From the NCBI GenBank assembly GCA_040757115.1, contig JBFLYA010000042.1, positions 6,395 to 23,235 on the forward strand: a stretch of 16,841 nt of DNA. Direction: 5' to 3'. The position numbers and the translations under genes were made by a program. Every line of letters begins with the position of its first letter. Within the stretch, counting starts at the first letter, position 1. Source of the stretch: a bacterium. Its GTDB lineage: Bacteria; UBA9089; CG2-30-40-21; SBAY01. The notes under the pieces were generated by a model. It was not told the origin of the DNA, made no database searches, and saw only the letters and a list, made by a program, of their open reading frames with translations. Below, in pieces: positions 348 through 16,530 of the stretch.

Positions 348-353
348 GAAGAA

Positions 354-386
354 AACGGGGCTCGGGACTCGGGACTCGGGACTCGG
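354..386 (+). repeat. CGGGACT-type heptamer tandem repeat, left flank
   Basis: Four to five consecutive copies of a heptamer close to CGGGACT lie between the last perfect CRISPR repeat and the ribosome binding site of the four-helix-bundle gene. The complementary form CCCGAGCCCCG appears just after the gene stop (770-780), so the gene is bracketed by inverted heptamers. The GC-rich composition contrasts sharply with the A+T-rich surroundings. Confidence 0.85.
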
Positions 387-403
387 GGAAAAAGGAGGGT
401 GAA

Positions 404-760: not shown

Positions 761-787
761 TTTCTCTTCCCGAGCCCCGAACTTAAC

Positions 788-1372: not shown

Positions 1373-1402
1373 TAATCAGATGACTAAATAGTTACATTAA
1401 AT

Positions 1403-1610
1403 GTAACTATTCACCACGAAGGGTACGGAGAGCACGAAGTGAAATTTGATGAATTATCGAATAGAGTCATTGGATGCGCTATAGCGGTGCATCGAACTCT
1501 TGGACCAGGTTTGCTTGACACCGTGAAGAGTGATAATTCACAATTGACAATTCACCATTCACCATTATTAAGGAAATTTAGGGAAAAAATTGTGAATGGT
1601 GAATAGTTAC
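1403..1610. repeat. GTAACTATTCACC-bounded inverted-repeat element with GxxExxY remnant
   Basis: The left end GTAACTATTCACC (1403-1415) is matched by its exact complement GGTGAATAGTTAC at 1598-1610. The 208-bp interior carries the N-terminal part of a GxxExxY gene and an imperfect inverted CAATTCACCATTCACC motif. The right end stops 12 nt before the tRNA gene. The left end abuts another outward-facing copy, giving the perfect 11-bp palindrome at 1387-1411. Confidence 0.75.
1439..1606 (+). pseudogene. GxxExxY protein, N-terminal remnant
   Basis: Reading from GTG at 1439 the translation is KFDELSNRVIGCAIAVHRTL followed by GPGLL, the characteristic first 25 residues of GxxExxY family proteins (function unknown, about 125 residues). 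After this the frame continues into unrelated dispersed-repeat sequence (DTVKSDNSQLTIHHSP) and stops at 1606, after 56 codons. The GxxExxY core and C-terminus are missing. The frame is open upstream into the inverted-repeat arm, as GxxExxY genes often read through such arms. I regard it as a non-functional fragment. Confidence 0.8.
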
Positions 1611-1622
1611 CATTAAATCAAT

Positions 1623-1698
1623 GTCCCCATCGACTAGAGGCCCAGGTCACCACCCTTTCAAGGTGGCAGCGGGGGTTCGAATCCCCCTGGGGACACCA
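1623..1698 (+). tRNA. tRNA-Glu(UUC): tRNA-Glu, anticodon UUC
   Basis: The 76-nt cloverleaf has acceptor stem GTCCCCA (1623-1629) paired with TGGGGAC (1688-1694), discriminator A and an encoded CCA (1696-1698). The anticodon stem is CCACC/GGTGG (1650-1654, 1662-1666) with loop CTTTCAA, giving anticodon TTC at 1657-1659. The T arm is GGGGG-TTCGAAT-CCCCC. purH starts 24 nt after the CCA end, so the two may share a transcript. A repeat element ends 12 nt upstream. Confidence 0.97.
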
Positions 1699-1722
1699 GT
1701 TTTATCTTAAGGTAAAAATGAA

Positions 1723-3261
1723 ATGATTAAGGTTAAACGAGCATTAATTAGTGTTGCAGATAAACAAGGATTACTTAATCTGGCAAATTACCTGGTCCAG
1801 ATAAATGTTGAGATTATTTCCACAGGTGGCACTTCTAAAACCCTGCAAGAGGCAGGAATACCTGTTATTCCTGTTTCAGCAATAACTAATTTCCCGGAGA
1901 TGTTAGATGGAAGGGTAAAAACATTACATCCTAATATCCATGCAGGAATTTTAGCTCAACGCACATCAGAACATCTTAAACAACTTGAAGAACACAATAT
2001 TAAACCAATTGACTTAGTTATTATTAATCTTTATCCCTTTGCCAAAACCATTGCTAAACCCAATGTTACCTTAGAAGAAGCCATTGAAAATATTGATATT
2101 GGCGGTCCAACGATGATTCGTGCTGCGGCTAAAAATTATAATTATGTCGGCGTAATCACCTCTCCTGAAAGATATGAAGATGTTCTTATGGAACTTAAGA
2201 AAAATGATGGTTGTTTATCATTAGAATTAAGTTATAAATTAGCCTGTGAGGCATTTGCTCACACCGCTCAATATGATGCCATTATCCATCAATATTTAGA
2301 AAAAGATTTATTCCCTCAAACCTTAAATTTAACTTATCAAAAGGCACAATCCTTAAGATATGGTGAAAATCCTCATCAGCAAGCCGCATTCTATAGAAAT
2401 CCACAAAACACTATCCCGGGAGTCAGTAATGCAAAACAACTGCACGGCAAAGAACTCTCTTACAATAATCTCTTAGACCTTGATTCGGCATTAGAATTGG
2501 TCAAGGAATTTGAAGAAGATTTTGCCTGTGTTATCGTCAAACATAATAATCCTTGTGGAGTAGCGGTAACAGATAATCAACTCACAGCATATCAACTTGC
2601 TTATGAAACAGATTCAACATCTGCTTTTGGGGGAATAATTAGTTTTAATCAAGGTGTAGAAAAAGATACCGCAGAAGAATTGGTTAAAACATTTATTGAG
2701 GCAATTATTGCCCCTGGATTTACGAAAGAGGCACTTGAAATCCTTAAAACAAAAAAGGACTTGAGGCTTTTGGAAGTAGCTCCCTGGCAAAGAAATCCCT
2801 CATATCCACTTCACTTAAGAAGTGTTGTTGGTGGATTACTTATCCAGGAGTCTGATGTCCAAAAAATCACAGCTCAAGATTTTAAAGTAGTCAGTAGACG
2901 ACAACCTACACCACAAGAAATAAAGGCAATGCTTTTTGGTTGGAAGGTAGTAAAGCATATCAAATCTAATGCTATCGTTTTATGCAAAGGAGATAGAACT
3001 CTGAGTATAGGTGCAGGTCAAATGTCAAGAGTAGATTCGGTGAAAATTGCTATTAATAAAGCAGGAAGTAACGCCTTTGGAAGTATTATGGCTTCAGATG
3101 CCTTTTTTCCTTTTAGAGATGGAATTGACCTATCTGATAGAGCGGGTGTTAGAGCCGTAATTCAACCCGGCGGCTCCATTAGAGACGAAGAAATAATCAA
3201 GGCAATAGATGAATATGGTATGGCAATGGTATTTACTGGTGTGAGACATTTTAGACATTAG
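1723..3261 (+). CDS. purH: Bifunctional AICAR formyltransferase / IMP cyclohydrolase
   Basis: This cytoplasmic enzyme performs the last two steps of de novo purine synthesis. It transfers a formyl group from 10-formyl-THF to AICAR and cyclises FAICAR to IMP. The 512-residue length is normal. Residues 1 to about 145 form the methylglyoxal-synthase-like cyclohydrolase domain (STGGTSKTL at 33-41, LDGRVKTLHPNIHAGIL at 61-77). The rest is the AICAR transformylase domain, with the signature LRYGENPHQ (211-219), the catalytic Lys-His in KHNNPCG (273-279), and the family's C-terminal ending RHFRH. The usual motif is KHTNPCG, so Thr is Asn here. The start at ATG 1723 gives the standard IKVKRALISVADK N-terminus; the upstream Shine-Dalgarno is weak (AAGGTAAAA). 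No other pur gene is in the window. It directly follows tRNA-Glu. Confidence 0.98.
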   Translation: MIKVKRALISVADKQGLLNLANYLVQINVEIISTGGTSKTLQEAGIPVIPVSAITNFPEMLDGRVKTLHPNIHAGILAQRTSEHLKQLEEHNIKPIDLVIINLYPFAKTIAKPNVTLEEAIENIDIGGPTMIRAAAKNYNYVGVITSPERYEDVLMELKKNDGCLSLELSYKLACEAFAHTAQYDAIIHQYLEKDLFPQTLNLTYQKAQSLRYGENPHQQAAFYRNPQNTIPGVSNAKQLHGKELSYNNLLDLDSALELVKEFEEDFACVIVKHNNPCGVAVTDNQLTAYQLAYETDSTSAFGGIISFNQGVEKDTAEELVKTFIEAIIAPGFTKEALEILKTKKDLRLLEVAPWQRNPSYPLHLRSVVGGLLIQESDVQKITAQDFKVVSRRQPTPQEIKAMLFGWKVVKHIKSNAIVLCKGDRTLSIGAGQMSRVDSVKIAINKAGSNAFGSIMASDAFFPFRDGIDLSDRAGVRAVIQPGGSIRDEEIIKAIDEYGMAMVFTGVRHFRH

Positions 3262-3317
3262 ATTATTAGTTTCCTTATCCCCTTTATTTCCCTTTTCTGA
3301 TTTTAAGCACTAAGCAA

Positions 3318-3342
3318 AGGAGGTGATAAAAAAAGTATGTAA
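3318..3342 (+). other. Very strong Shine-Dalgarno followed by an ATG-TAA start-stop
   Basis: AAAGGAGGTGAT (3317-3328) is an almost complete complement of the 16S rRNA 3' end. The first ATG after it, at 3337, is immediately followed by TAA. No reading frame of any length follows. It may be the remnant of a gene whose body was replaced by the repeat element starting at 3339, or a minimal start-stop site. Confidence 0.4.
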
Positions 3343-3360
3343 GAGTTCAGATAGGATAAA

Positions 3361-3455
3361 TAGGGCTTCACGAAATTATAAACTAAGTAATCGGTTAAAT
3401 GGTAACTGGTAACTAATTACCATTCACCAGTTACCAATTACCAGAAATAAGGAGA
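3361..3455 (+). repeat. Dispersed direct repeat TAGGRCTTCACGAAATTA, copy 1
   Basis: About 95 nt, closely similar to 3841-3925 and exactly 480 nt apart. It consists of the opening TAGGGCTTCACGAAATTA, a run of GGTAACTGGTAAC words and their complements TTACCAATTACCAG, and an ending AAGGAG. In both copies this ending falls at the ribosome binding site of the next reading frame, here the GxxExxY fragment. Confidence 0.75.
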
Positions 3456-3465
3456 AAGGGAGAAG

Positions 3466-3549
3466 ATGGAGAAGTGGAGAAAAGAAGAGTTAAGTGATAG
3501 GATTATTAATGCCTGTATTAATGTCCATAAAAAGTTAGTCTCGTGTTGA
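3466..3549 (+). pseudogene. GxxExxY protein, second N-terminal remnant
   Basis: Twenty-seven codons starting MEKWRKEELSDRIINACINV and continuing HKKLVSC before TGA. The segment EELSDRIINACINVHKKL is the typical beginning of GxxExxY proteins, which would continue with GPGLLES. Here the frame turns into repeat sequence and stops at once. GGAG (about 3450) precedes the start. Only the first 20% or so of the gene is left, within the 3339-3826 repeat island. Confidence 0.7.
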
Positions 3550-3840
3550 ACAAATAACGCACGGAATTTGATTCTGGTAACTGGTGATTGGTAACTGGTA
3601 ATTAAATACCGTTCGGCTGAGCTCAGGACGAAACTATTTAACCAATTACCAGTTACCAATTATCCGTTTGCAGGTTACGAAACCTGATGATGCCCCGTGC
3701 AAAACTTACTCAACACGACATCAGGATTGATGTCCGAAGGGTGGAGCAAGAAAAAGTTTGAGCCAATTCTCCCTTTTCCCCATTTCTCCTTGTTTACACT
3801 TCTAATGTATAGCCCTGAACGGTTACAAAAATATTTTCAA

Positions 3841-3925
3841 TAGGACTTCACGAAATTAAAAGCAAGTAACTGGTAAATGGCAACTAATTACCATTCACCA
3901 ATTACCAATTACCAAATAAAAGGAG
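3841..3925 (+). repeat. Dispersed direct repeat TAGGACTTCACGAAATTA, copy 2
   Basis: Second copy of the 3361-3455 repeat, immediately outside the right terminus of the 3339-3826 island. Its last bases (AAATAAAAGGAG) supply the Shine-Dalgarno of the C11 protease gene at 3935. Confidence 0.75.
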
Positions 3926-3934
3926 GATAAAAAA

Positions 3935-5425
3935 ATGTTAAAAAGAATAAGTATCTTTTTAGGAGTAGTGATTTTAAGCGGGTTTATTGGGATAGCAAAT
4001 TTAGAGGCACAAGATTATGGAATCGATATCTCCACAAATCAATCGGGTTATACCTCAGGGGATACCTTGATAGAAAGTGCCCATCTATGGAACTCAACTT
4101 TAGAAAATAAAGTTGTAGATATAAAAAATTGGGTTAGTTGTCCTTCACCAGTGGGATTAATCTCAATTCATAACATTCCGGGGTTTTCATTACCCGCTGG
4201 GTTTGATTTCACCGGGGATGTATTTTCCTATGTATTTGGAGGTTCTGAGCCAGAAGGAACATACAGTCTGGGAGCAAGATTAATTCATTCTGTTACTGGT
4301 GATATTTTAAGTCAGGATTTTGCCCCATTTAGTTTTGGCCCTGTTGCTATGAAGGAATGGACCTATCTGGTCTATATTGCGGCGGATAATAATTTAGAAG
4401 ATGCAGGGATTGATGATTTTCTTGAAATGGCAACAGTTGGCTCGAGTGATGATGTAAATATAGTTGTTCAGTTTGACCGTATTTCCGGGTATGATACAAG
4501 TTATGAAGATTGGAAAACTACAAAGAGATTTTTAATTACGCCGGGTATGACGCCGACACCAGCAAATGCTTTAATGGACATAGGTGAGGCAAATATGGGC
4601 GATATGCAGGTATTAAAAGACTTTGTGGAATGGGGAATGACCAATTATCCTGCAAATAAATATGCCCTTGTGCTCTGGAATCACGGCAGTGGCATATTGC
4701 CAAAATTGGGAGAACAAGCAGTCAGAGGTGTATGCTGGGATGATACAAATGGTGGTTATTTAACGATGGATGAGGTAGAAACAGCACTCTCTGGCAAAAT
4801 GATGAATTTCTTAGGTTATGATGCGTGTTTGATGGCGATGATTGAGGTTGCTTATGAACCTAAAGTCTCATCAGAGATAATGGTGGGTTCGGAAGAAACC
4901 GAGCCATGGGATGGTTGGCCATATGACCCAATTCTGGCACAACTGGTTGTTAATCCGGGTATGGATGCCGCTTTCTTAGGTTCAATTACGGTAAGAGAGT
5001 ATATTAATTCTTATGCAGGGGATCCTTATGTAACATTATCTGCGATCCAGACTACAGCCGCTCTGGATAATTTAGCCACTGCGGTAAGTAACCTGGCAGA
5101 TGCGATGGTTGCCTGCGGACAATGGACTAACATTAAAGCCGCTCGCTTAGCCGCAGAAGACTTTGGAACTGGCGTTGACCTCTATGATTTTGCCGAAGAG
5201 ATTTACTATCGAGTTACAGACCCTACGGTTCAAAGTGCCGCAATAGCGGTAGGAAATGCGATTAATAATGCGGTCATTGCCGAAGCACATTACTCAGGTC
5301 ATCCAGGTGCCCATGGGATAGTTATATATTTCCCAACCACCGGTCCTTCAGCAAGTTATCTTTCGACTAACTTTGCAATTAATACAACCTGGGATGAATT
5401 TTTAGCTGAATACGCAACCCATTAA
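3935..5425 (+). CDS. Secreted C11 family (clostripain-type) cysteine peptidase
   Basis: The 496-residue product is a predicted exported endopeptidase of the clostripain family (C11, clan CD), which cleaves after basic residues or processes other secreted proteins. Residues 1-26 form a signal peptide (KR, then a hydrophobic stretch to about 22, ending LEAQ). Residues about 27-135 look like a beta-sandwich domain (DISTNQSGYTSGD opening). The peptidase core follows: WTYLVYIAADNNLE (142-155), the catalytic His in LVLWNHGSG (His250), and the catalytic Cys in GYDACLMAMIEVAYE (Cys298). Near the end, GAHGIVIYFP is also family-typical. The start has a good Shine-Dalgarno (AAAGGAGG, 3919-3926) contributed by a dispersed repeat. 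The gene stands alone between two repeat islands, so its partner or substrate cannot be inferred. It is intact, with both dyad residues present. Confidence 0.92.
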   Translation: MLKRISIFLGVVILSGFIGIANLEAQDYGIDISTNQSGYTSGDTLIESAHLWNSTLENKVVDIKNWVSCPSPVGLISIHNIPGFSLPAGFDFTGDVFSYVFGGSEPEGTYSLGARLIHSVTGDILSQDFAPFSFGPVAMKEWTYLVYIAADNNLEDAGIDDFLEMATVGSSDDVNIVVQFDRISGYDTSYEDWKTTKRFLITPGMTPTPANALMDIGEANMGDMQVLKDFVEWGMTNYPANKYALVLWNHGSGILPKLGEQAVRGVCWDDTNGGYLTMDEVETALSGKMMNFLGYDACLMAMIEVAYEPKVSSEIMVGSEETEPWDGWPYDPILAQLVVNPGMDAAFLGSITVREYINSYAGDPYVTLSAIQTTAALDNLATAVSNLADAMVACGQWTNIKAARLAAEDFGTGVDLYDFAEEIYYRVTDPTVQSAAIAVGNAINNAVIAEAHYSGHPGAHGIVIYFPTTGPSASYLSTNFAINTTWDEFLAEYATH

Positions 5426-5443
5426 TCAATACAAAGTAAAAAT

Positions 5444-5689
5444 GTAACCGTTTAGGTAATCCTTTACCGCAGAGACGCAGAGAAACAGAGAGGAAAATAT
5501 CTTTTTTTCGTGTTTATCGCGTTCTTCGGTGTTTAAAAAGGCTTAAAAACAGTTAGTCAAAAGTAAGTATTAAAAGATTAATAAACAACGAAAGCCTCGA
5601 GAGGCACACAAAAAAAGGAAATTTCTGTCTCTGGTGAATAGATTTTAATTTTTTCTCTGCGTCTCTGTGTCTCTGCGGTGAACAGTTAC
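5444..5689. repeat. GTAACC-bounded element with CCGCAGAGACGCAGAG arms (decayed GxxExxY element)
   Basis: The left end GTAACCGTTTAGG is followed by ACCGCAGAGACGCAGAGAAA. The right end carries the complement (CTCTGCGTCTCTGTGTCTCT) and finishes GCGGTGAACAGTTAC. The interior has no open GxxExxY gene. However, the sequence before the right arm (AATAGATTTTAATTTTTTCT, 5636-5655) equals the last codons, stop and arm of the GxxExxY element at 14592-14883, read from the other strand. It also holds a 62-bp perfect copy of 9165-9226. Most of the gap 5426-5789 is this element. Confidence 0.75.
5608..5669 (+). repeat. 62-bp perfect direct repeat, copy 1
   Basis: Identical over 62 nt to 9165-9226. It begins ACAAAAAAAGGAAATTTCTG and runs through GGTGAATAGATTTTAA into the CTCTGCGTCTCTGTG arm. 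It is the right half of a GTAAC-bounded element. Confidence 0.9.
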
Positions 5690-5789
5690 CCATCTCCTTT
5701 CTTACGCTTAAGAAAGACTTCTCTAAAATCCTACTTCTTCCCATTCCTGAGATAGAGTTATTATTTACTTAAGGAGTAAAAAATAAATC

Positions 5790-7109
5790 ATGAGGTATCA
5801 TTTTGTCGGTATTGGTGGAAGTGGAATGAGTGCCTTAGCCCAAATACTTTCCGACGCTAATGTCTCAGGCTCGGATAGATATTATGATTCAGGCATTAAT
5901 ACCGAACTTTTTGATAAACTTAAAACTGCAGGAATCTCTGTATTTAAACAAGATGGTTCTGGAATTAAAGAAGATGTTAATAAAGTCATAGTCTCTACCG
6001 CTATTGAAGATGACAATCCTGATATTAAAAAAGCCAGAGAGAAAAATATACCTGTTATGAGGCGGGCAGAACTATTAGCTGAGATTTTCAATGCCAGTAA
6101 GGTAGGAATTGCCGTTACCGGCACAAGTGGGAAAACAACTACTACGGCAATGATTGGCTTTATCCTGCATCAACTTGGGTTAGCACCAACGATTATCAAC
6201 GGCGGGATAATGAAAGATTTCAACAATAATTGTTTGAAAGGTAATTCAGAATTAATGGTCATCGAGGCAGATGAAAGCGATGGTTCTTGTGGTTTATATA
6301 AACCAACTATTGGCGTGGTGACAAATATTCACCTTGACCATAAATCCTTAGATGAACTGGAAGTTATTTTCTCCAAATTTGCCACAAATGTTAAAGAAAC
6401 GCTTATTTTAAATGCAGATTGTCATCCAGATTTAAAATCAAAAACGAGTTTTGGCATTGAAAAAAAGGCAACCATTCATCCAACAAAATTAAAATTATAC
6501 CCACAAAAATCTCATTTCTCCCTTGAAAATACCCAATATATCCTTCCCTTACCGGGAATTCATAATGTTTATAATGCTTTAGCGGCTATTGCCGTGGTTA
6601 AGACTTTAGGTTTTAGCAACAAAGAAATAAGTGAAGCGTTGGGTAAGTTTAAAGGGATAAAAAGGCGATTTGAGATAGTCGGCAAAAAAAAGGGAATTAC
6701 GGTCATAGATGATTATGCCCATAATCCGGACAAGATTAAAGCCACACTTATTACCCTTAAAGGACAGTTCCCAAAAGTTATCGTTATTTTCCAACCACAT
6801 GGTTTTGGTCCAACTCGATTATTAAAACAAGGATTTATCCAGGTATTTAAAGAAGAATTAAGACCACAGGATATTTTATATATGCCAGAGATTTACTATG
6901 TCGGCGGCACAGTGACAAAGGATATTTCTTCAAATGACATTATTATCGCTTTGCAAAAAGAGGGTTTACAGGCAATCTATTGCCCGGAGCGAAGAAAGAT
7001 AATTCCTCAGGTTATTGAAAAGGTTTCATCTGGCGATGCGGTAATCATTATGGGAGCACGGGATGATACCTTATCTAAATTTTGCCTGGATATTTTAGCG
7101 GAATTATAG
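5790..7109 (+). CDS. MurC-like Mur ligase (divergent)
   Basis: The 439-residue product has the three Mur-ligase domains. An N-terminal Rossmann domain starts HFVGIGGSGMSALAQIL (4-20). The central ATPase has P-loop TGTSGKTTTT (110-119), EADESDGS (159-166) and TNIHLDHKSL (178-187). The C-terminal ligase domain has LPGIHNVYNALAA (254-266) and DDYAHNPDKI (307-316). MurC adds L-alanine to UDP-MurNAc in the cytoplasm; the N-terminus and EADESDGS favour MurC or Mpl-type substrates. Three signature positions differ from ordinary MurC: GTSGKT instead of GTHGKT, AHNP instead of AHHP, and FQPHGFGPTR instead of the QPHR(Y/F)xRT type. It is also slightly short and is not in a mur/fts cluster. It could therefore be a second, recycling or paralogous ligase rather than the main MurC. 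AAGGAG at 5771-5776 precedes ATG by 13 nt. Confidence 0.8.
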   Translation: MRYHFVGIGGSGMSALAQILSDANVSGSDRYYDSGINTELFDKLKTAGISVFKQDGSGIKEDVNKVIVSTAIEDDNPDIKKAREKNIPVMRRAELLAEIFNASKVGIAVTGTSGKTTTTAMIGFILHQLGLAPTIINGGIMKDFNNNCLKGNSELMVIEADESDGSCGLYKPTIGVVTNIHLDHKSLDELEVIFSKFATNVKETLILNADCHPDLKSKTSFGIEKKATIHPTKLKLYPQKSHFSLENTQYILPLPGIHNVYNALAAIAVVKTLGFSNKEISEALGKFKGIKRRFEIVGKKKGITVIDDYAHNPDKIKATLITLKGQFPKVIVIFQPHGFGPTRLLKQGFIQVFKEELRPQDILYMPEIYYVGGTVTKDISSNDIIIALQKEGLQAIYCPERRKIIPQVIEKVSSGDAVIIMGARDDTLSKFCLDILAEL

Positions 7110-7113
7110 CAGT

Positions 7114-7168
7114 TATAGTGGTTATTAGTCAAAATCTCTATGAGAACTTTTTGTTAATAACTACTATA
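7114..7168. terminator. Hairpin between convergent genes, probable bidirectional terminator
   Basis: TATAGTGGTTATTAGTCAAAA (7114-7134, split here as TATAGTGG and TTATTAGTCAAAA) pairs with TTTTGTTAATAACTACTATA (7149-7168), with few mismatches. It lies just past the Mur-ligase stop and covers the stop codon of the leftward CNNM gene. It has T/A-rich flanks but no long U tract. Confidence 0.5.
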
Positions 7169-8171
7169 CTTTCTCTTCAGGATACCCATCGTGTATTTCT
7201 CCGACTATTTCTTCTAATAAATCCTCCATAGTGACTATTCCAACTATTTTTTTAGATTCATCTTTGACAATAGCCAGTTGGAGATGCCTTTTCTGAAATT
7301 CTTTAAGCAGGTCGTTGATTTTTTTAGAAGGCAAGACAAAATAAGCCGGTTTAATTAATTTTTGCCAGTTAGTCTGATTTTTAAGGCTGATTAGAAAGTC
7401 TTTAACATGAAGGATGCCGATAATTTCTTCTCCTTTATAAACAGGCATTCTCGAATGGCCTTCTTTAATCATCAAGGATAAGATTTTATCTGTGGAGTCT
7501 TCGTCTATTTTCACACAAACCATCTTATTTTGTGGCGTCATTACTTCCTCTACCTTATGGTCACCAAATTCAAAGATAGAATGAATTAGTTTTTGTTCAT
7601 GTGCCTTTAACACCCCTTCTCTTGCCCCAATGTCAACTATTGTTCTAATTTCTTCCTCAGTCAACTCCTTGTCTTTAATAAAAAATTTATGTTTTTCTAT
7701 TAACAGAATGATTAAATGAGTTAGCCAGGATAAGACTATTTTCAATGGAGCTAAGAGGATGGAGAAATACCGCAGAGGATATGTAACCCAGGGGGCAATT
7801 TGAGAGGATTTTGTAGCGCCAAGTGTAATTGGGACAATCTCACCAAAAAATAAAATTAAAATTGTCATCACAAAAATAGCCAATCCGGTGGCTATTACCT
7901 CGTTAATGCCAATTTTCCCACATAAATTAATGGCGATAAATGTCGCTATGGATGAGGCAGTAATATTAACCAGAGTAGTTCCGATTAGAAGGGTTGTCAG
8001 AAGTTCTTTGGGATTTTCTAATAACCTTGAAATTCTCTTTTGTGCCCTATCACTTAGCTGTTTTATTTTTAACTTTGATAGAGCAAAAAGAGCCGCCTCT
8101 GCCCCGGAAAAAAAAGCGGATAAACATAAGAGTATCCCTATACAAATCAGGAATAAGATTAAATTATCCAA
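7164..8171 (-). CDS. CNNM/HlyC-CorC family protein: DUF21 transmembrane domain plus CBS pair
   Basis: An integral membrane protein of the CNNM/CorC family, linked to Mg/Co transport or efflux. Residues 1 to about 160 are the DUF21 domain with several membrane segments (4-24, 58-82, 93-112, 136-158). It keeps SGAEAAL (22-28) and GEIVP (110-114), but the usual Lys after GEIxP is Ile here. Residues about 205-325 are two CBS domains (EEVMTPQNKM at 208-217, GIVTMEDLLEEIVGEI at 311-326). The protein ends soon after (335 residues), so the C-terminal CorC/HlyC domain common in 400-440 residue homologues is absent. The start is TTG at 8171, the first possible start after the in-frame stop of the upstream gene (8175-8177). 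GTGGGAT, inside the upstream gene's last codons, may serve as ribosome binding site. Translation is probably coupled to the DgkA-PAP2 gene, 3 nt away. Confidence 0.9.
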   Translation of the reverse strand: MDNLILFLICIGILLCLSAFFSGAEAALFALSKLKIKQLSDRAQKRISRLLENPKELLTTLLIGTTLVNITASSIATFIAINLCGKIGINEVIATGLAIFVMTILILFFGEIVPITLGATKSSQIAPWVTYPLRYFSILLAPLKIVLSWLTHLIILLIEKHKFFIKDKELTEEEIRTIVDIGAREGVLKAHEQKLIHSIFEFGDHKVEEVMTPQNKMVCVKIDEDSTDKILSLMIKEGHSRMPVYKGEEIIGILHVKDFLISLKNQTNWQKLIKPAYFVLPSKKINDLLKEFQKRHLQLAIVKDESKKIVGIVTMEDLLEEIVGEIHDGYPEEKV

Positions 8172-8174
8172 AAA

Positions 8175-8879
8175 TTATCCCACCCCACAGATTACAAAGA
8201 TTAAAAGTGTAATTAATCCGCCAACTAAAGCACCAATAACTACTTCTTGCAAGGAATGAATTCCTGTTTTCCATCTAGTGTGACAGAGTAAAATCGCAAC
8301 AATCAGCACCAGTAAAGAAATAAATATATTTCTACTAACAAATGTAACAATTACCCAGATACAAAAGCTAACCGCACTATGACCTGAAGGCATTCCACCT
8401 CTCAAAAAAGTTCCTTTGCCAACACAGGCTTTAATTGCAACCACCGCGATTAAGACTAAAGATAAACTGACAAAGGACAGATGTATGGGATTATATTCTG
8501 TTCTTATTACCACTGGAGAAGGAAGATGTATTCGATTGTATAAGATTAAATAACCAATAGATAAAGCAATTATCGAGGCAATCAATACTGCTCCGGCACC
8601 AATATCTTTAGCCGTGCCTGCGACTTTATGATGGGTATCAATAATTAAATCAACAATGGATTCTATTGCGGTATTGAGCATTTCACTAATTAACACTAAA
8701 CCAATGGCAAAAAAGATTGCCACTAATTCAATTCGAGTTAAATCTAAGAATAAACTTGCCAGTAAAACAAGCACCATTACGGAGACATGCAATTGCATAT
8801 TGCGTTGTGTCTTTAATCCATGAATAATGCCTGATATGGCAAAATTAAAGCTATCGGATAAGCCTTTAAATAGTTTCAT
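8175..8879 (-). CDS. DgkA-type lipid kinase fused to a PAP2 phosphatase
   Basis: A 234-residue membrane protein with two enzymes in tandem. Residues 1 to about 120 are a complete diacylglycerol/undecaprenol kinase of the DgkA family, with AISGIIHGLKTQRN (14-27), EMLNTAIE (66-73) and KDIGAGAVLIA (91-101). Residues about 130-234 are a PAP2 domain: KGTFLRGGMPSGHSA (155-169) contains motifs 1-2, and R202-x5-H208-x3-E212 is motif 3, where the final acidic residue is Glu instead of the usual Asp. In Gram-positive-type systems the kinase makes undecaprenyl phosphate from undecaprenol, and PAP2 enzymes make it from the pyrophosphate. The fusion would therefore feed one lipid-carrier pool from two sides (inference). 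dgkA beside ybeY/pgpH/phoH is the conserved gene order. The upstream Shine-Dalgarno is poor (GGGCGAGA). Confidence 0.92.
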   Translation of the reverse strand: MKLFKGLSDSFNFAISGIIHGLKTQRNMQLHVSVMVLVLLASLFLDLTRIELVAIFFAIGLVLISEMLNTAIESIVDLIIDTHHKVAGTAKDIGAGAVLIASIIALSIGYLILYNRIHLPSPVVIRTEYNPIHLSFVSLSLVLIAVVAIKACVGKGTFLRGGMPSGHSAVSFCIWVIVTFVSRNIFISLLVLIVAILLCHTRWKTGIHSLQEVVIGALVGGLITLLIFVICGVG

Positions 8880-8929
8880 TTTTTTATCTCGCCCTATTTT
8901 GATAATTGGTAAATGGTAATTAAATATCG

Positions 8930-9166
8930 GTAACCGTTCAGGCTATATATCAAAAGTGTAAGAAAGGGGATAAGGAGATAAGAGTGATATGGAGATAAGA
9001 TAATAGAAATAGATTGAAATTTATAGAAATAGGTAGAAATTGATTGTGGAAAACAACAAATTTCCATAAATTTCTATTAGTTTCTATTAATTTCAATTTT
9101 TTTAATAATATCTCCCTATCTCCTTAATCTCCACATCTCCTTTTGTTACACCACCTGAACGCTTAC
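8930..9166. repeat. GTAACCGTTCAGG-bounded nested inverted-repeat element
   Basis: Outer ends GTAACCGTTCAGG (8930-8942) and CCTGAACGCTTAC (9154-9166) are complementary at 12 of 13 positions. Inside are GTGTAAGAAAGGGGATAAGG and further GGAGATAA words (8956-8999), paired with ATCTCCTTAATCTCC words ending GTTACAC (to 9151). The core has TAGAAATAGATTGAAATT-type words with their complements around 9000-9100. The whole element could fold into one long hairpin. It separates ybeY from the dgkA-PAP2 gene and has no coding potential. Confidence 0.75.
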
Positions 9167-9248
9167 AAAAAAAGGAAATTTCTGTCTCTGGTGAATAGAT
9201 TTTAATTTTTTCTCTGCGTCTCTGTGGCATCTTGCGGTGAACGGTTAC
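9165..9248. repeat. Right half of a GTAAC-bounded element (62-bp perfect repeat, copy 2)
   Basis: 9165-9226 is identical to 5608-5669. After a short divergent stretch it ends GCGGTGAACGGTTAC (9234-9248), the same terminus as at 5689 and 14883. The left half is missing; it abuts the right end of the 8930-9166 element. The rest of the gap to 9269 has only AACCAATTACCAATTA-type repeat words. Confidence 0.85.
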
Positions 9249-9269
9249 GCCATTTTAACCAATTACCAA

Positions 9270-9719: not shown

Positions 9720-11958
9720 CTTGAGTTTGCTCCGTAAATAGTGGAGATGGTTGTTGTTCCTTTTCTGGATATTCTACTCTGGCATGAAACAAGGTGATTA
9801 GAACCCTGGTGAATGCCTGGCTAATCTTATTTAAGTCTTTTAAAGTCAAGTCACATTCATCCAATTCGCCACTAATAAATCTATCATCAATGATTTTTTT
9901 AACCAATTTTTCAATTCGGGATGTTGTTGGTTTTATCAAAGTTCTGGAAGCGGCTTCGCAGGAATCAGCCAACATCACAATTGCCGCTTCTTTACTTTGA
10001 GGTTTTGGACCTAAATATGAGAATTCTGTCTCCTTAAATTCTTGTTCTTCGGTTGTCTCTTTTTCCCTTGCCTGATGATAAAAATAAGCCATAACCGATG
10101 AACCATGATGTTGTTGAATAATTTCGATAATTTCGTGCGGCAGACGATTTCGTTTAGCCACTTCAACACCGTCTTTGATATGGGAACGCAGGACTGAGGC
10201 AGAGAGTGTCGAACGCAGGACTTCATGGCGATTTCGTTCGAATTCTGTCTGGTTTTCTATAAAATACTCTGGTCTAATCATTTTACCAATATCGTGGTAG
10301 TAAGATGCGACTCGGGTTAATAAATAGTTAGCGCCAATAGCATTTGCTCCAGATTCAGCTATATTTCCGACTAAAAGGCTGTGGTGATAAGTTCCCGGGG
10401 CTTTCAATAGTAAATTTTTTAGAAGTGGGGCATTTAAGTCTGAGAGTTCAAATAAGGTAAAATTAGTGGCAATATTAAAAATACGCTCTAAATATAATAG
10501 TGACCCCATAGCAATAATAGTGGCGATAATTCCATTAGCTAAACTACCCAAAAGAAGATTTTGCTGGAGTAGTCCAAATGACTCCTGCCGAAACAGGCTA
10601 TAACTAACAATGATTACACCCTGAGCAATTGCGGCGGCCACGCCAGCTCGAATAAGGTCACCCCTTAACTTTAATTGTGATGTTGTATAGACAGCGGCTA
10701 AACTACCAGCAACAAAAAGCAAGACAAATTCCATCCGCTCACCGACTAAAAGACCCACGCAGATATTTAAAATGACGGTGACAAATATCGCTATTTCCTG
10801 ATTAAGTAAAACAGATAAAAGAATGGCAAAGGCACTCATTGGCATAAGGTGAAAAGGTAGATTAGTTGTTGAAATAACCTTAGCCAGGGCTATTGCCGTG
10901 ATAATTATTAATCCAATCAGGCTTAAGTTTTTATTACGGATTAAAAGTTGGGATTGATATTTATAAAGGTAGATAAACGATAAGATTATCAATATGTATA
11001 TCAATAAGATAAATCCTAAATTCCTTGTTGTTATCGCCGCACTGCGGTGTTTGGACAATTCGGCTAATTTCATCGCCGCATCCCTATCTACTTTCTCTCC
11101 TTCGCCAACAATCTTCTCCCCTTTACTTACCTTGCACCGGATAGGTTTCACGCCTTTAATTGCCTCTTTAGAGGCTTTTTTCGTCTCTTTTTCATTAAAT
11201 TTTAAATTTAGCACAAGATAATTTTTAGCCAATTCAAATACCCCATCTTGAACTTTAGAAGAAGATATTCTCTTTGGATATAGTGGTGAAGATTCAGGTA
11301 AATCATTCAGGAAAAAGAAGTTTTCCGTTGTCTCAACTAATTTTTCTGATGTTCCATCTGTGGCAAGAATTCTTAATCTGATTCCAATAATAGTGTCTTT
11401 TGATAATTTATCTTTCGGGATATTGGTTATTCCATAGGTTAGCCAGGTTTTTAATAGTAAAGTTATATCTTCTTCTATTTCAGAAAGTTCTGGGTAATTT
11501 AGAATAGCCTTTAAATTTTTATCTGAAAGATTGATATTTGGGAATTTTTCTCTAAATTTTAAGCAGGTTTTTTCTAATTCAAACTTTTTTTCCTCCTTTA
11601 TTTTTCTTGTTTCTTCAAATAAATTCTTTATTTTTGGAAGGACAGATGGGATAACTTTCAGGTCTAAGTTATAAACAGGATTAACCTTAGCCACAGCGGA
11701 TTCCCTTGCCACTTTAGTCATAAAGGTATTCTCATATAAAAAGTCATAAGGGGCTTTAATAAGATTTGGACTGACTTCTGTTTCTTTAGGGTAGGGGGTG
11801 ATAATTAAATTAGGGGTGATAAGTAGCGATAAAATGCCCAATATCAATATGATTAATAGAGTCCTGCCTGTTTTTTTACCTAAAAAAACTGATTTTAACA
11901 GGGGAATATATTTTGAAACCCTTTCTTGTTCAAATATTTTATGTCCCTTTCTTCGCAT
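9661..11958 (-). CDS. pgpH: 7TM-HD phosphohydrolase, PgpH-like (probable c-di-AMP phosphodiesterase)
   Basis: A 765-residue membrane protein of the PgpH/YqfF family, whose studied members hydrolyse cyclic di-AMP. An N-terminal membrane segment (about 33-55) is followed by an extracytoplasmic 7TMR-HDED domain (about 60-305), then a run of seven or so membrane helices (about 313-492). The cytoplasmic HD domain has GTYHHSLLVGNIAE (His525-His526), the metal-binding YYHDIGK (His555-Asp556), QQHHGSS (615-621) and ADSCEAASRT (664-673). The start was set at ATG 11958 because GAGGAG lies at 11966-11971, seven nt upstream. An ATG at 11973 is in frame, but that Shine-Dalgarno lies downstream of it. With the 11958 start the gene overlaps phoH by 20 nt. 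This implies c-di-AMP signalling; the cyclase is not in the window. It could instead act on another nucleotide. Confidence 0.93.
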   Translation of the reverse strand: MRRKGHKIFEQERVSKYIPLLKSVFLGKKTGRTLLIILILGILSLLITPNLIITPYPKETEVSPNLIKAPYDFLYENTFMTKVARESAVAKVNPVYNLDLKVIPSVLPKIKNLFEETRKIKEEKKFELEKTCLKFREKFPNINLSDKNLKAILNYPELSEIEEDITLLLKTWLTYGITNIPKDKLSKDTIIGIRLRILATDGTSEKLVETTENFFFLNDLPESSPLYPKRISSSKVQDGVFELAKNYLVLNLKFNEKETKKASKEAIKGVKPIRCKVSKGEKIVGEGEKVDRDAAMKLAELSKHRSAAITTRNLGFILLIYILIILSFIYLYKYQSQLLIRNKNLSLIGLIIITAIALAKVISTTNLPFHLMPMSAFAILLSVLLNQEIAIFVTVILNICVGLLVGERMEFVLLFVAGSLAAVYTTSQLKLRGDLIRAGVAAAIAQGVIIVSYSLFRQESFGLLQQNLLLGSLANGIIATIIAMGSLLYLERIFNIATNFTLFELSDLNAPLLKNLLLKAPGTYHHSLLVGNIAESGANAIGANYLLTRVASYYHDIGKMIRPEYFIENQTEFERNRHEVLRSTLSASVLRSHIKDGVEVAKRNRLPHEIIEIIQQHHGSSVMAYFYHQAREKETTEEQEFKETEFSYLGPKPQSKEAAIVMLADSCEAASRTLIKPTTSRIEKLVKKIIDDRFISGELDECDLTLKDLNKISQAFTRVLITLFHARVEYPEKEQQPSPLFTEQTQDVKGVNSQQDKQEVQGKLD

Positions 11959-12904
11959 CTTCAAACTCCTCATAGGCTTTAATTATATCCGAGACAAGGC
12001 GATGTCTGACAACATCAGTTTTATCAAAATAAACAAAACTAATTCCCTCAATTGCGGACAAAATAGTTTGGATTTCAACTAAGCCGGAGATTGAAGTTGA
12101 CGGCAGGTCTATCTGGGTAATATCTCCGGTAATCACTGCCTTAGAGTCAAAACCTAATCTTGTCAAAAACATCTTCATTTGCTCATGTGTTGTATTTTGT
12201 GCCTCATCTAAAATCACGAATGAGTCATTAAGAGTCCGTCCTCGCATAAAGGCTAATGGTGCGACTTCAATCACCCCTTCATTTAATAAATAATGGAATT
12301 TCTCTATCCCAATCATATCAAAAATGGCATCATACAAAGGTCTTAAGTATGGGTCAACTTTATCCAGCATATCCCCGGGTAGAAATCCTAATCTTTCTCC
12401 AGCCTCAATTGCTGGTCGAGTCAGGATAATTCTTGCCACCTCTTTTTTTAACAAACTTGAGACCGCCATCGCCACGGCTAAATATGTTTTACCCGTGCCC
12501 GCAGGACCTATGCCAAAAACAATATCATATTGTTGAATTGCCTCGATATACCTTCTTTGTCCCAATGTTTTTGGTCTAATTGGCTTTCCTCGTTCAGAGA
12601 CATATATTGCCTCCTGAAAAACAGAGACAAGGTCTATATTTTTACTCTGGCTGAGCATTTTTAATGAATATTTTATCTCAGGTGTGCGGACAACATGGCC
12701 TGAGTGAAAGATTGATAACAGATCTTCCAATAGTTTCTTTATTGAATGAACATCTTTATTTTCTCCTTTAATGATTAATTCATTGCCTCTTGAGATGATT
12801 TTAGTTGTTGGAAATTCCTCCCGAATGAGGCGTAAATTCTCATCATTTCTACCTAAGATGTTCACTACTTCTTCATCATTGGCAAAGATAATTTTTTCTT
12901 CCAT
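11939..12904 (-). CDS. phoH: PhoH family ATPase
   Basis: A 321-residue cytoplasmic protein. Residues 1 to about 70 form a KH-like RNA-binding region (VVNILGRNDENLRLIREEFP). The P-loop ATPase domain has IGPAGTGKTYLA (132-143, Walker A), FVILDEAQNTT (229-239, Walker B) and LTRLGFDSKAVITGDITQID (248-267), all standard PhoH/YbeZ blocks. PhoH-like proteins associate functionally with YbeY in RNA metabolism, and here phoH, pgpH and ybeY overlap in one operon. ATG 12904 follows the stop of the membrane-fusion gene by 6 nt, with GAGGGACG just before it, suggesting translational coupling. Length is normal and both Walker motifs are intact. Confidence 0.97.
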   Translation of the reverse strand: MEEKIIFANDEEVVNILGRNDENLRLIREEFPTTKIISRGNELIIKGENKDVHSIKKLLEDLLSIFHSGHVVRTPEIKYSLKMLSQSKNIDLVSVFQEAIYVSERGKPIRPKTLGQRRYIEAIQQYDIVFGIGPAGTGKTYLAVAMAVSSLLKKEVARIILTRPAIEAGERLGFLPGDMLDKVDPYLRPLYDAIFDMIGIEKFHYLLNEGVIEVAPLAFMRGRTLNDSFVILDEAQNTTHEQMKMFLTRLGFDSKAVITGDITQIDLPSTSISGLVEIQTILSAIEGISFVYFDKTDVVRHRLVSDIIKAYEEFEDAKKGT

Positions 12905-12910
12905 CGTCCC

Positions 12911-13945
12911 TCATTCTCTCACCTTCATTCCCTCTTTTAGTTTAAGACTTCCAGCAGAGAGAATTATCTTATCCTGCGGTGTGAGACCAAAGATTATCTC
13001 TGTTTGATTTTGATTAGTTATGCCTATGCGGACAACTCGTTTTGTGGCAACTCCATCTTTATAAAGATAGACAAAACTTTGCCTGCCTTCTTTAAATATT
13101 GCCTCAGAGTCTAAAAGAACAACATTCTCTTTATGCTCGGTTAATATTTTTACTTCTACCCGTTTTCCTAATTTTATTTCAGGTAGTTTTTTAGAGGTAT
13201 CCAATTCAATTATAACTTTAGAACTTACTTCTTCAGGTTGAATAGACTTGACATATCCAGACAATTCTAAATCCTCAAGTTTAATGGACGCATCCTGACC
13301 TAACTTTACCCTTCTCGCATCAATACTTAAGAGATTGACAGATACCTGCAATTTCTCTAAGTCAACTATTTTCATTAAAACTTCATTTTGGAGAACATAC
13401 TGCCCTGGTAAAACTCTTTTTTCTATAACTGTTCCTGAATGAGGGGCTAAATAAATTAAGTTATTTAGTTGTTCTTGAGCAAGTCTCAGGTTTTCAAGAG
13501 ATATATTTTTTTCGACTAAAGCCTTTTTATACGCACTTTCACTATTTTTAACCTCGTCTTCTAATACCTCTTGTTTTCCATAAAGCCCTGTAGTTGTTAT
13601 TAATAATTGTTCTGCCTGTATCAGTATCCTTTTTGTTAGGTCTAATTGTGATTGTGCCTCTTTAACCATTTTTTCTGCCTCCTGTTGATTAAAGATAATA
13701 AGTTCCTGTCCAGAGGTAACATTATTATTTTCCTCAACCAAAACTTTATCTACCACGCCCTTAGCCTTCGCACAAATTTCTGTTTTAAGTTGGGCATCTA
13801 TAGTTCCGGTGGTTAAGAGGCAAGAATCTATTTTACTGATAGTTGGTGTAATTATTCTTACCTTTGGAAATTTTACTCCTCTAAAAATCACCAGACAAAT
13901 TATCACGCAAGTAGCAATAAAAAACAGCCCGATAAGTTTTTTCAT
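12911..13945 (-). CDS. Efflux periplasmic adaptor (HlyD/MacA-type membrane-fusion protein)
   Basis: A 344-residue adaptor protein that would link an inner-membrane transporter to the outer envelope. An N-terminal anchor or signal segment (residues 4-21) is followed by lipoyl half-motifs (about 52-88: AKAKGVVDKVLVEENNNVTS; and about 166-196: LAPHSGTVIEKRVLPGQYV), which flank an alpha-helical coiled-coil hairpin (about 88-162). A beta-barrel and a membrane-proximal domain (about 198-340) follow, ending in the family's AGSLKLKEGMKVRE. Its cognate transporter (RND pump or MacB-type ABC transporter) is not in the window. It sits between a HIT gene and phoH in the leftward operon, which is not a usual position. 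AAGGGG about 7 nt upstream supports ATG 13945. Use of such an adaptor suggests a two-membrane envelope (inference). Confidence 0.9.
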   Translation of the reverse strand: MKKLIGLFFIATCVIICLVIFRGVKFPKVRIITPTISKIDSCLLTTGTIDAQLKTEICAKAKGVVDKVLVEENNNVTSGQELIIFNQQEAEKMVKEAQSQLDLTKRILIQAEQLLITTTGLYGKQEVLEDEVKNSESAYKKALVEKNISLENLRLAQEQLNNLIYLAPHSGTVIEKRVLPGQYVLQNEVLMKIVDLEKLQVSVNLLSIDARRVKLGQDASIKLEDLELSGYVKSIQPEEVSSKVIIELDTSKKLPEIKLGKRVEVKILTEHKENVVLLDSEAIFKEGRQSFVYLYKDGVATKRVVRIGITNQNQTEIIFGLTPQDKIILSAGSLKLKEGMKVRE

Positions 13946-13982
13946 TATTTCCCCTTTTTACAGATTTTCAGACAGACAGATT

Positions 13983-14480
13983 CTAACTTCTCGCCTCTGT
14001 CTTTAGAAATGCCTCTTTAAACTTCTTCAGCGTTTCATTTGGGTCTTCGATAATGACTCGTGCCTTACCTACAATATCAATAAGTCCAATCTCATTTCTG
14101 TATCTTGGAATGATGTGAAGATGAAGATGTTCAATACTTGCTCCACTGACATAACCTATGTTATAACCAACATTAAATCCTGACGGAGAATAAAGTTTTT
14201 CGATAATATTTAATGTCATCGTTGTTAAATTATTAAGTTCTAATACCTGGTCATCGCTGAGTTGTCTTGGGTCGATTAGATGCTTTTTCGGGAAAATCAT
14301 TAAATGTCCTGGATTATATGGATAGAGATTAAGCGAGATGATAAAATGCTTTGTGTGATAAATATCAAGTTTCGTTACCTTTGGGTTTCTTTTATTAATC
14401 GCACATAAGATACATTTTACCTTTGGTTTATTTCCTTTTACATAGGATAGTTTATCCGGGATAAATAGATGTGTTTCCAT
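13983..14480 (-). CDS. HIT domain nucleotide hydrolase/phosphorylase
   Basis: A 165-residue HIT-superfamily enzyme resembling the Ap4A phosphorylase-like branch with a zinc site. KCILC (Cys23, Cys26) with downstream histidines probably binds zinc. NPGHLMIFPKKHL (56-68) and the catalytic triad IEHLHLHIIPRY (His118, His120, His122; 117-127) are diagnostic. Substrates are probably dinucleoside polyphosphates or nucleotide conjugates; the exact one cannot be told. It is the first gene of the leftward cluster. A consensus promoter lies at 14496-14523, so its leader would be only about 9 nt and there is little Shine-Dalgarno. The next gene, the membrane-fusion protein, starts 37 nt after its stop. 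Confidence 0.92.
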   Translation of the reverse strand: METHLFIPDKLSYVKGNKPKVKCILCAINKRNPKVTKLDIYHTKHFIISLNLYPYNPGHLMIFPKKHLIDPRQLSDDQVLELNNLTTMTLNIIEKLYSPSGFNVGYNIGYVSGASIEHLHLHIIPRYRNEIGLIDIVGKARVIIEDPNETLKKFKEAFLKTEARS

Positions 14481-14495
14481 TTTTTTCTATTTAAG

Positions 14496-14523
14496 ATTAT
14501 ACCATTTAAGACAAGAAAGTCAA
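14496..14523 (-). promoter_or_regulatory. Sigma-70-type promoter of the leftward HIT-phoH-ybeY cluster
   Basis: On the minus strand, TTGACT (14523-14518) and TATAAT (14501-14496) are separated by 16 nt. The start of transcription would fall near 14489, giving a leader of about 9 nt before the HIT ATG at 14480. Confidence 0.8.
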
Positions 14524-14591
14524 GAAAAATTTAAGTAATTATTTACCCGGGTGAAGTGAGACAGACTTTTTTACACAATTTCTGCCATAAT

Positions 14592-14883
14592 GTAACTATT
14601 CACCGCAGAGACGCGGAGACACAGAGAAAAAATTAAAATCTATTGGCTATACGCTTAATTCCATCTCTTAGAACAGAAACATTAAAATTGATCAATAAAC
14701 CTATCCTTTTATTCATCATTTTTAGATAGGTTAAAAGTTGAGCTTCGTGAATCGGAAGTAGTTGCTCGACTGCTTTTAATTCTACGATAACTTTTTCTTC
14801 AACTAAAAGATCTATCCGGTATCCACAATCTAATTTAAATCCTTTTTTCTCTGTTCCTCTGCGTCTCTGCGGTGAATAGTTAC
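14592..14883. repeat. 292-bp element with 41-bp terminal inverted repeats and GxxExxY cargo
   Basis: The left end (14592-14632) and the right end (14843-14883) are inverted copies matching at 38 of 41 positions. Both read inward as GTAACTATTCACCGCAGAGA, then CGC, a GAG-containing stretch, and ACAGAGAAAAAA. Between them lies the C-terminal half of a GxxExxY gene on the minus strand, whose stop abuts the left arm and whose frame opens through the right arm. The element sits between two oppositely directed promoters. No transposase is present. Confidence 0.9.
14633..14845 (-). pseudogene. GxxExxY protein, C-terminal half
   Basis: Minus-strand translation gives KGFKLDCGYRIDLLVEEKVI, then VELKAVEQLLPIHEAQLLTY, LKMMNKRIGLLINFNVSVLR and DGIKRIANRF before the stop at 14633-14635. 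This is the conserved second half of GxxExxY proteins (restriction-endonuclease-like fold proposed for the family; function unknown). The first half, with the LSxxxIGAAxEVHxxLGPG block, is missing. The open frame runs instead into the inverted-repeat arm (NYSPQRRRGTEK) without a start codon. The coding part has no internal stop or frameshift, so truncation is recent or the fragment is maintained. Confidence 0.88.
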
Positions 14884-14901
14884 GCCATAATTATAAAATT
14901 C

Positions 14902-14931
14902 TTGACAATTTAATTAATAATGTGATATAAT
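14902..14931 (+). promoter_or_regulatory. Sigma-70-type promoter of the J-domain gene
   Basis: TTGACA (14902-14907) and TATAAT (14926-14931) are separated by 18 nt. Transcription would start near 14938, leaving about 14 nt before ATG 14952, with GAAGAGA as a weak ribosome binding site. Confidence 0.8.
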
Positions 14932-14951
14932 AAATACTGAAGAGAATAATA

Positions 14952-15650
14952 ATGATAAAGAGTAAATCAGCGTATTATAAGGTATTAAACTTAAATCCTA
15001 TGGCTAATTTAGAGGAGATAAAGAAGGCTTATCGCCAATTAGCCAAGGTCTATCATCCTGATTTAAATCCAGGCAGGGAAAAGGTTGCTGAAGAGAAATT
15101 TAAAGAGATAGCCGAGGCGTATGATGTTTTAAAAAAGTCTGCACCATCTGAAGTAGGTATTCCTCGATATACAGCACCGCAACCTCCACCAACACAAGAA
15201 AAATATCCATTTGAGCAAGATGCTTTTACTAATTTTGCTTATTATCCAACAACCTCATACCGCGATATATTTATAAATGTCTTCCTGACATTTAATTTCT
15301 ATTTAAGTCTGGGGATTTTGGTATCTGCACCTTTTTTACCTTTACCTGGTGCGGGAAGTGAAACAGTGTATTCATTGTGTGGCTCTTTAATCGTATTATA
15401 TCTATTTTTTACCTATCAAGGATATTTTATTACCGGGTGGTTTTTTGGGATATTGGCATTATTGGGTTGGTTACCGGTGGTTCTGGGTGAGTGTTCGTGG
15501 AAGGTAGGAATCTTTGCCTCAGCCGCTCCACTTGGCGCGATATGTAGTGCAAGCATTACAGGCATACTTTATCTTTGCTTTAAACTTACTCAAGCGGCTA
15601 TCGAGGGGGCTAAAAATGTCTACTTTTACCTCGCTTTACCAAAGAAATAA
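14952..15650 (+). CDS. Membrane-anchored J-domain (DnaJ-like) protein
   Basis: A 232-residue protein with an N-terminal J domain (about 5-62: [20 protein letters not shown], with the DnaK-stimulating HPD at 35-37). A proline-rich linker follows (68-85, [14 protein letters not shown]). The remainder is hydrophobic, with about four membrane segments (106-128, 136-156, 158-179, 186-212). The J domain would face the cytoplasm and recruit DnaK to the membrane. There is no zinc-finger or substrate-binding domain of canonical DnaJ, and the membrane part is not one I recognise. Its own promoter (14902-14931) drives it, and it appears monocistronic. The 3' end is followed 4 nt later by a repeat element. 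A role in membrane-protein quality control is only a guess. Confidence 0.88.
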
Positions 15651-15654
15651 AGTA

Positions 15655-15839
15655 GTTATTCAGCCACGGATTAGCACGGAGAAAGAGCAGAGGGCAGAAG
15701 GCAGAGGGTAGAGGGCAGAAGGCAGAGGGCAGAGGACAACAGGAGGAAAAACCTTCAGCCTAATTACGGACACGGATACCGGACACGATTTACGAATTTT
15801 CAGTGTTTCATCTGTATCCATTTGTGGCTGAACAGTTAC
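15655..15839. repeat. Inverted-repeat element GTTATTCAGCCAC / GTGGCTGAACAGTTAC
   Basis: The left end GTTATTCAGCCACGGATT (15655-15672) and the right end GTGGCTGAACAGTTAC (15824-15839) are complementary apart from a small deletion. The interior holds an imperfect tandem of AGAGGGCAGAAGGC words (15688-15735) and rearranged CACGGATACCGGACACG words. It matches the GTAACYRTTCA terminus pattern of the other islands. No gene is visible here. From 15840 to 15987 I see only A+T-rich sequence and one weak short frame. Confidence 0.7.
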
Positions 15840-16514: not shown

Positions 16515-16530
16515 TTATAGCAAGGAGAAA

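Follow-up and report, generated by a model that had tools for sequence, protein, structure and literature searches.

Intergenic repeat islands with GTAACYRTTCA ends are very likely non-autonomous IS66-family transposons, many with GxxExxY stem-loop cassettes

The terminal repeats of IS66 elements are 20-30 bp long, and neither 8-bp duplications nor clean empty sites are expected for REP/RAYT systems. IS66 ends begin with GTAAGCG and are accompanied by 8-bp duplications (PMC11946415), and IS66 entries with 8-bp duplications are also given in PMC3281130. For the intervening sequences (IVS) of 23S rRNA, mobility has been proposed, not shown, and has been a question since the early 1990s (PMC4990558).

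We analyzed a 16,841-bp stretch of DNA, here called the window, in which a preliminary description had seen GTAACYRTTCA as the shared terminus of nearly every intergenic repeat island. Matches to this motif at up to 2 mismatches numbered 40 in the window vs 15.0 +/- 4.3 in shuffled sequence, and 0 of 200 shuffles reached 40. Nine matches were exact (1403+, 1600-, 3816-, 5679-, 8930+, 9238-, 14592+, 14873- and 15829-). The 462 contigs of the genome (4.32 Mb) together contained 1065 exact copies, 525 forward and 540 reverse, as compared to 22 copies of the reversed pattern (9 forward and 13 reverse), clearly contradicting the idea that the terminus is not enriched genome-wide. When 60 other genomes were compared, the sister species had 1074 exact copies, genomes from other genera in its family and order 27-307 and the rest of the phylum 2-717, while other phyla were at about the control level except for a few genomes with some pairs. 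In a contig scan that left out the window's own genome, the CCGCAGAG-type end was detected on one Deltaproteobacteria MAG contig only. Terminal inverted repeats (TIRs) are common to many copies, one of the features by which IS66-type miniature transposons (MITEs) and mobile insertion cassettes (MICs) are recognized.

The inward-facing pairs listed earlier were confirmed in position with small corrections to two left ends. In the second pair (3339) the left end reads GTAAGAGTTCA, with 2 mismatches to the motif. In the last pair it lies at 15652, 3 bp off the 15655 given earlier, and reads GTAGTTATTCA, also with 2 mismatches; a single mismatch was seen in each of the ends at 5444 and 9166. The statement on "nearly every" island holds for six of them; these ends do not enclose the repeat blocks at ~346-925 (CRISPR plus IVP cassette), 940-1320 (CGACCTGTG repeats) and 16520-16720. 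Rfam detected only a tRNA in the window. The features of the window are collected in Table 1.

Table 1. Repeat islands, gene remnants and cassette of the window
Feature	Position	Strand	Evidence or remark
MITE, 208 bp, CCACGAAGG-type interior	1403..1610	.	exact TIRs and 8-bp duplication
Duplication CATTAAAT of island 1403-1610	1395-1402 and 1611-1618		
N-terminal remnant of GxxExxY gene in island 1403-1610	1439-1531	+	GxxExxY E 5.6e-5
488-bp element, bounded by GTAAGAGTTCA / TGAACGGTTAC	3339..3826	.	duplication AAAAGTAT / AAAAATAT
GxxExxY N-terminal remnant in island 3339-3826	~3466-3546	+	SDRIINACINVHKKL common to intact copies L040/L043
246-bp element, CCGCAGAGACGCAGAG type	5444..5689	.	duplication gone
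237-bp MITE, GGCTATATATC...GTGTAAGAAAGG interior	8930..9166	.	inserted at AAAAAAAG within older CCGCAGAG-type element
Right half of older CCGCAGAG-type element	9167..9248	.	G001 comparison
292-bp MITE	14592..14883	.	duplication GCCATAAT at 14584-14591 and 14884-14891
C-terminal part of GxxExxY gene in island 14592-14883	14648-14863	-	
Old element, GCCACGGATTAGC-type interior	15652..15839	.	left part common to G001; duplication gone
IVP cassette	346..785	+	CTCGGGA-repeat arms; adjoins CRISPR repeats; related in architecture; not bounded by GTAACYRTTCA
Four-helix-bundle protein gene in IVP cassette	404-760		TIGR02436 / PF05635 23S_rRNA_IVP

Target duplications were scored directly outside GTAAC...GTTAC and the expectation was obtained by shuffling pairs. 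In 411 kb, 35 inward pairs lay less than 700 bp apart, and 13 of these carried an identical 8 bp directly outside vs 0.44 expected; no other duplication length from 2 to 13 was enriched among the same 35 pairs. G008, which belongs to the same phylum but to another family, gave 8 of 37 pairs vs 0.16 expected. In 781 kb, elements with exact duplications measured 158-546 bp and none of them was autonomous; the sole 8-bp-flanked pair over 550 bp, 6468-9166 in the window, was rejected as a chance pair. Elements number in the hundreds, occupy ~3% of the sampled genome and are placed intergenically, with long ORFs on both flanks in only 1/31 and 5/56 elements. The search for target-site duplications that had been suggested was positive in the window, with exact 8 bp at 1403/1610 and 14592/14883 and AAAAGTAT/AAAAATAT at 3339/3826. 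These duplications, missed in the preliminary description, decide that the islands are transposon insertions.

To this the sister genome G001 (same genus; collinear with much of the window at 96-99% identity) added the precise pairs of empty and occupied sites that had been looked for. Three of the six window islands are precisely absent from G001, with a single 8-bp target copy kept. Without island 1403-1610, G001 reads ...GTTACATTAAATCAATG..., holding one CATTAAAT; its contig C92, without 14592-14883, holds one GCCATAAT; and in place of 3339-3826 the junction is AAAAGTAT joined to TTTCAATAGG. Further occupied/empty pairs were detected in both directions in the fetched parts of both genomes, and several of these empty sites were gap-free across all 240 bp tested at 97-99% identity. 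This comparison shows that the elements moved recently. Folding the islands, as had been proposed, resulted in near-complete, very stable stems (z ~ -12), and an immobile regulatory or structural repeat that arose by convergence, such as a terminator or processing hairpin, would suit such strong folding and the intergenic placement. Two genomes 96-99% identical differ in the precise presence or absence of elements flanked by target duplications, which refutes this as the main explanation and leaves it practically no probability, though single copies may have been co-opted for such roles. Maintenance as hairpins, also suggested earlier, is not needed to explain the ends, although the stems are indeed very stable.

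As IS66 ends combine GTAAGCG with an 8-bp duplication, and GTAAGCGTTCA is a common end variant in the window genome, we tested IS66 transposases as the partner. A near-complete IS66 gene at L079:893-2455 (PF03050, E 1.9e-39) lies between GTAACCGTTCAGG and CCTGAACGGTTAC and contains two stop codons. The other IS66 matches in this genome are four fragments, some at contig ends, suggesting that intact copies may be absent from the assembly. Intact IS66 genes were found in two relatives, one of 522 aa in G005 (L084) between GTAACTACTCAGG and CCTGAGTAGTTAC and one of 468 aa in G004 (L085) between GTAACCGTTCACA and TGTGAACGGTTAC. Pfam detected DDE_Tnp_IS66 and zf-IS66 in both, with the zf-IS66 of L084 below the Pfam cut-off. 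Two lineages of IS66 transposase genes have ends that agree, over 13 nt, with the two most frequent MITE end variants (GTAACCGTTCAGG, 54 termini, and GTAACTATTCAGC, 32 termini, in 781 kb). A transposase with the same termini, which the preliminary description had proposed to seek, is therefore represented by one broken gene (L079) and two intact ones (L084 and L085). The autonomous copies have GTAACCG/GTAAGCG starts with a left-right match of only ~11-15 bp, and the end common to islands and IS66 copies measures ~11-13 bp vs the 20-30 bp described for IS66. No exact 8-bp duplication was detected at L079, L084 or L085, copies that may be old or rearranged. PF03050 had no match in the termini-rich relatives G008, G013 and G015, and G004 has an intact IS66 gene yet few termini, indicating that the abundance of termini does not follow the transposase genes present today. 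An IS1595 transposase was also considered as partner and none was found in the genome.

A RAYT-like mobilizer had been the other suggestion, in which REP-like palindromes are spread by a Y1 (HUH) transposase. The copies are indeed numerous, palindromic and intergenic, and the genome has six Y1_Tnp matches, but 0 of the 6 Y1 genes lie between inward GTAACYRTTCA ends, which instead enclose an IS66-type DDE transposase, and the exact 8-bp duplications, together with the clean empty sites, also argue against this route, making it highly improbable. Together the duplications, the empty sites and the same ends around IS66 transposase genes make it very likely that the islands are non-autonomous IS66-family transposons, TIR-bounded and 8-bp duplicating: MITEs of ~160-550 bp, and MICs where the gene is intact. 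The same evidence supports the earlier view of one modular TIR family that lacks a transposase and is mobilized in trans. Judged from sequence, IS66 TnpC is the probable agent that moves the elements in trans. GTAACYRTTCA would be the outermost part of the TIR recognized by the transposase, TnpC supplied in trans would cut at these ends, and each insertion duplicates 8 bp of a target that is mostly AT-rich and intergenic.

The gene found inside the elements belongs to the GxxExxY family (TIGR04256; PF13366, PD-(D/E)XK superfamily), with 68 matches in the genome, ~20 of them near full length. Similarity to GxxExxY was detected in 58 of 215 elements, and full-length copies between the ends occurred in elements of 459-511 bp. 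One 496-bp element (L040:1410-1905) has an intact 131-aa GxxExxY ORF and a perfect duplication, ttatacac. The short MITEs at 14592-14883 and 1403-1610 hold C-terminal and N-terminal pieces, respectively, and island 3339-3826 contains nested palindromes beside a remnant that alone had no match in the profile library. Among diverged full-length copies (L029, L030 and L031) dN/dS was 0.08-0.11, demonstrating purifying selection on the gene. The CGACCTGTG outer repeat also encloses GxxExxY cassettes, and no target duplication was found there. A literature search, with most subscription papers outside its scope, found no link between GxxExxY and MITEs.

These observations raise the possibility that the GxxExxY protein is itself the mobilizer and the IS66 association secondary. 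No other gene was seen within the elements; this one is under purifying selection, its product falls in a nuclease-like superfamily (PF13366), and stem arms flank its copies whether or not IS66-type ends are present. However, many subfamilies with 8-bp duplications show no trace of GxxExxY, the same ends enclose IS66 transposase genes, and GTAA ends with 8-bp duplications fit IS66. We therefore consider this unlikely and retain mobilization by IS66 TnpC as the probable route.

The sister genome also captured how interiors are exchanged. On G001 contig C63, the outer flanks of 8930-9248, TAAATATCG and GCCATTTTAACC, enclose an intact CCGCAGAG-type element. In the window genome the 237-bp GGCTATATATC element, which has many copies at least 95% identical in G001, sits at AAAAAAAG inside this CCGCAGAG-type element, whose left half is lost. 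Nested insertion followed by recombination between two identical left ends would have removed the left half of the host element, and this explains the lone right end at 9248. At the 5444-5689 site, G001 has a shorter TIR-less hairpin, the right half of which persists in the window after 5689. Nesting and half-loss, plus the variety of cassettes, account for outermost ten bases that are alike around second layers that are not. The "exchangeable interiors" of the preliminary description are swapped at least partly by nesting then half-loss, but they are not arbitrary, as many are GxxExxY stem-loop cassettes, either intact or with internal deletions. Most short interiors would have come about as GxxExxY-carrying cassettes lost internal parts and as copies with common ends nested and recombined.

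To assess the arms of the cassettes, 200 bp upstream was tested against 200 bp downstream for inverted arms, with the 99% level of shuffles as threshold. Inverted arms bracketed GxxExxY genes at 20 of 24 loci in other genomes and 13 of 19 in the window genome, and genes of the 23S intervening-sequence protein (IVP; TIGR02436) at 24 of 30 loci and, when a further set was built around another genome, at 20 of 30. Ordinary ORFs of the window genome, used as control, had such arms in 4 of 205 cases. The arms are short tandem repeats, with period 7 in 19/21 and 13/18 IVP arms and period 8-10 in 20/25 GxxExxY arms, and many unrelated genomes have GxxExxY and IVP genes set in a similar way between arms built of 7-10-nt tandem units. 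In the window genome the cassettes lie within IS66-type ends, within CGACCTGTG repeats or without either. One candidate IVP-cassette insertion (L069:15726) proved to be a tandem rearrangement and not a clean insertion. No link between heptanucleotide arms and IVS was found in the literature search, most subscription papers again being outside its scope. We infer that these cassettes form a class of their own and of greater age, some members of which gained a vehicle here in IS66-type ends. Tentatively, and with somewhat less than even confidence, GxxExxY and IVP genes may form a single class of selfish stem-loop cassettes, so far undescribed and spread through many phyla, in part within IS66-type termini, with the rRNA IVS as best-known special case. 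This class would be defined by a stem with degenerate tandem-repeat arms, mostly of 7 nt for IVP and 8-10 nt for GxxExxY, and a loop that contains a short ORF.

One step explains most intergenic repeats of this uncultured lineage, and snapshots from a sister genome show MITE interior exchange by nesting and then half-loss. IS66 mobility is now linked to GxxExxY genes, a regular architecture common to the cassettes and 23S rRNA intervening sequences is exposed, and the mobility of ORF-in-stem elements becomes testable through empty-site comparisons. The tandem-armed cassettes are the least familiar part and the most worth following.

Compared with known systems, the islands resemble REP/BIME sequences with RAYT in being numerous palindromic intergenic repeats, but differ in their 8-bp duplications and DDE-transposase ends, with no Y1 gene between the ends. 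They have the same ends as single-ORF IS66 elements, and the points of agreement with that group are a PF03050 DDE transposase with a zf-IS66 match in the partner genes, ends starting GTAA(C/G)CG, and 8-bp duplications; unlike IS66, the islands have no transposase and a common end of ~11-13 bp, and the intact IS66 elements of relatives have no tnpA/tnpB ORF of 100 aa or more. As in the 23S rRNA IVS (PMC4990558), an ORF of ~120 codons sits in the loop of a long stem, and IVP cassettes occur in the same genome. However, the cassettes are intergenic and not in a 23S rRNA helix, their arms are 7-10-nt tandem units, and the MITEs carry GxxExxY, not IVP, within IS66-type ends. In form the islands are like MITEs and MICs, which are short, bounded by TIRs, flanked by target duplications, devoid of transposase and present in many copies, some with a passenger gene. 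The islands differ from these in making up ~3% of the genome, with more than 1000 termini and several subfamilies at once, and in having as interiors GxxExxY stem-loop cassettes and what deletion has left of them.

The window gene for the 23S-intervening-sequence protein (IVP), a four-helix bundle, carries arms of CTCGGGA repeats and is immediately preceded by a CRISPR repeat. Downstream of this cassette two partial CRISPR repeats were found, and between them lies a second pair of arms without a gene. The arrangement looks as if the cassette had entered a CRISPR array and had then been duplicated or recombined there.

Coordinates of the cassette, CRISPR repeats and other recurrent repeats
Feature	Window	Other loci
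CRISPR repeat	309-345	
IVP gene with CTCGGGA-repeat arms	within 346-925	
Partial CRISPR repeats, GACCTGATGAATAAGGGATTGCGA	~788 and ~900	
TTTCGACCTGTG(A/C)AAT... terminal repeat	940-1320	L032, L036-L038, L048, L170, L190
CAAGGAGAAACGGACATGAGCCAAGGCTCACAAAGGGCAATGAAAATG repeat	16520-16720	L069:15726-16280; L185 near 10048
CCGCAGAG-type element end, exact		L194 6693-6720

The TTTCGACCTGTG(A/C)AAT... sequence is a second high-copy terminal repeat that also encloses cassettes of the PD-(D/E)XK-superfamily gene GxxExxY, and no target duplication was found for it. A further recurrent repeat, CAAGGAGAAACGGACATGAGCCAAGGCTCACAAAGGGCAATGAAAATG, adjoins tandem-armed hairpins. The CCGCAGAG-type end occurs in a MAG labelled Deltaproteobacteria (B33_G16), a phylum other than that of the window; horizontal spread, a binning error or mislabelling may account for this.

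GxxExxY was matched 20 times in G008, a relative from another family of the phylum. Those on contigs C3, C10, C52, C62, C78, C85, C146, C166 and C177 are N-terminal fragments of ~40-55 codons, which suggests an amplified deletion derivative. In other genomes (L195-L218) inverted arms of period 8-10, with units including CGCAGAGA, GCAGATTAC and CACGAAGA, lie on both sides of GxxExxY genes. IVP genes in unrelated genomes (L224-L253, L274-L303) also lie between inverted arms; these consist of tandem repeats whose period is mostly 7, and the pattern was seen again in a second genome set.
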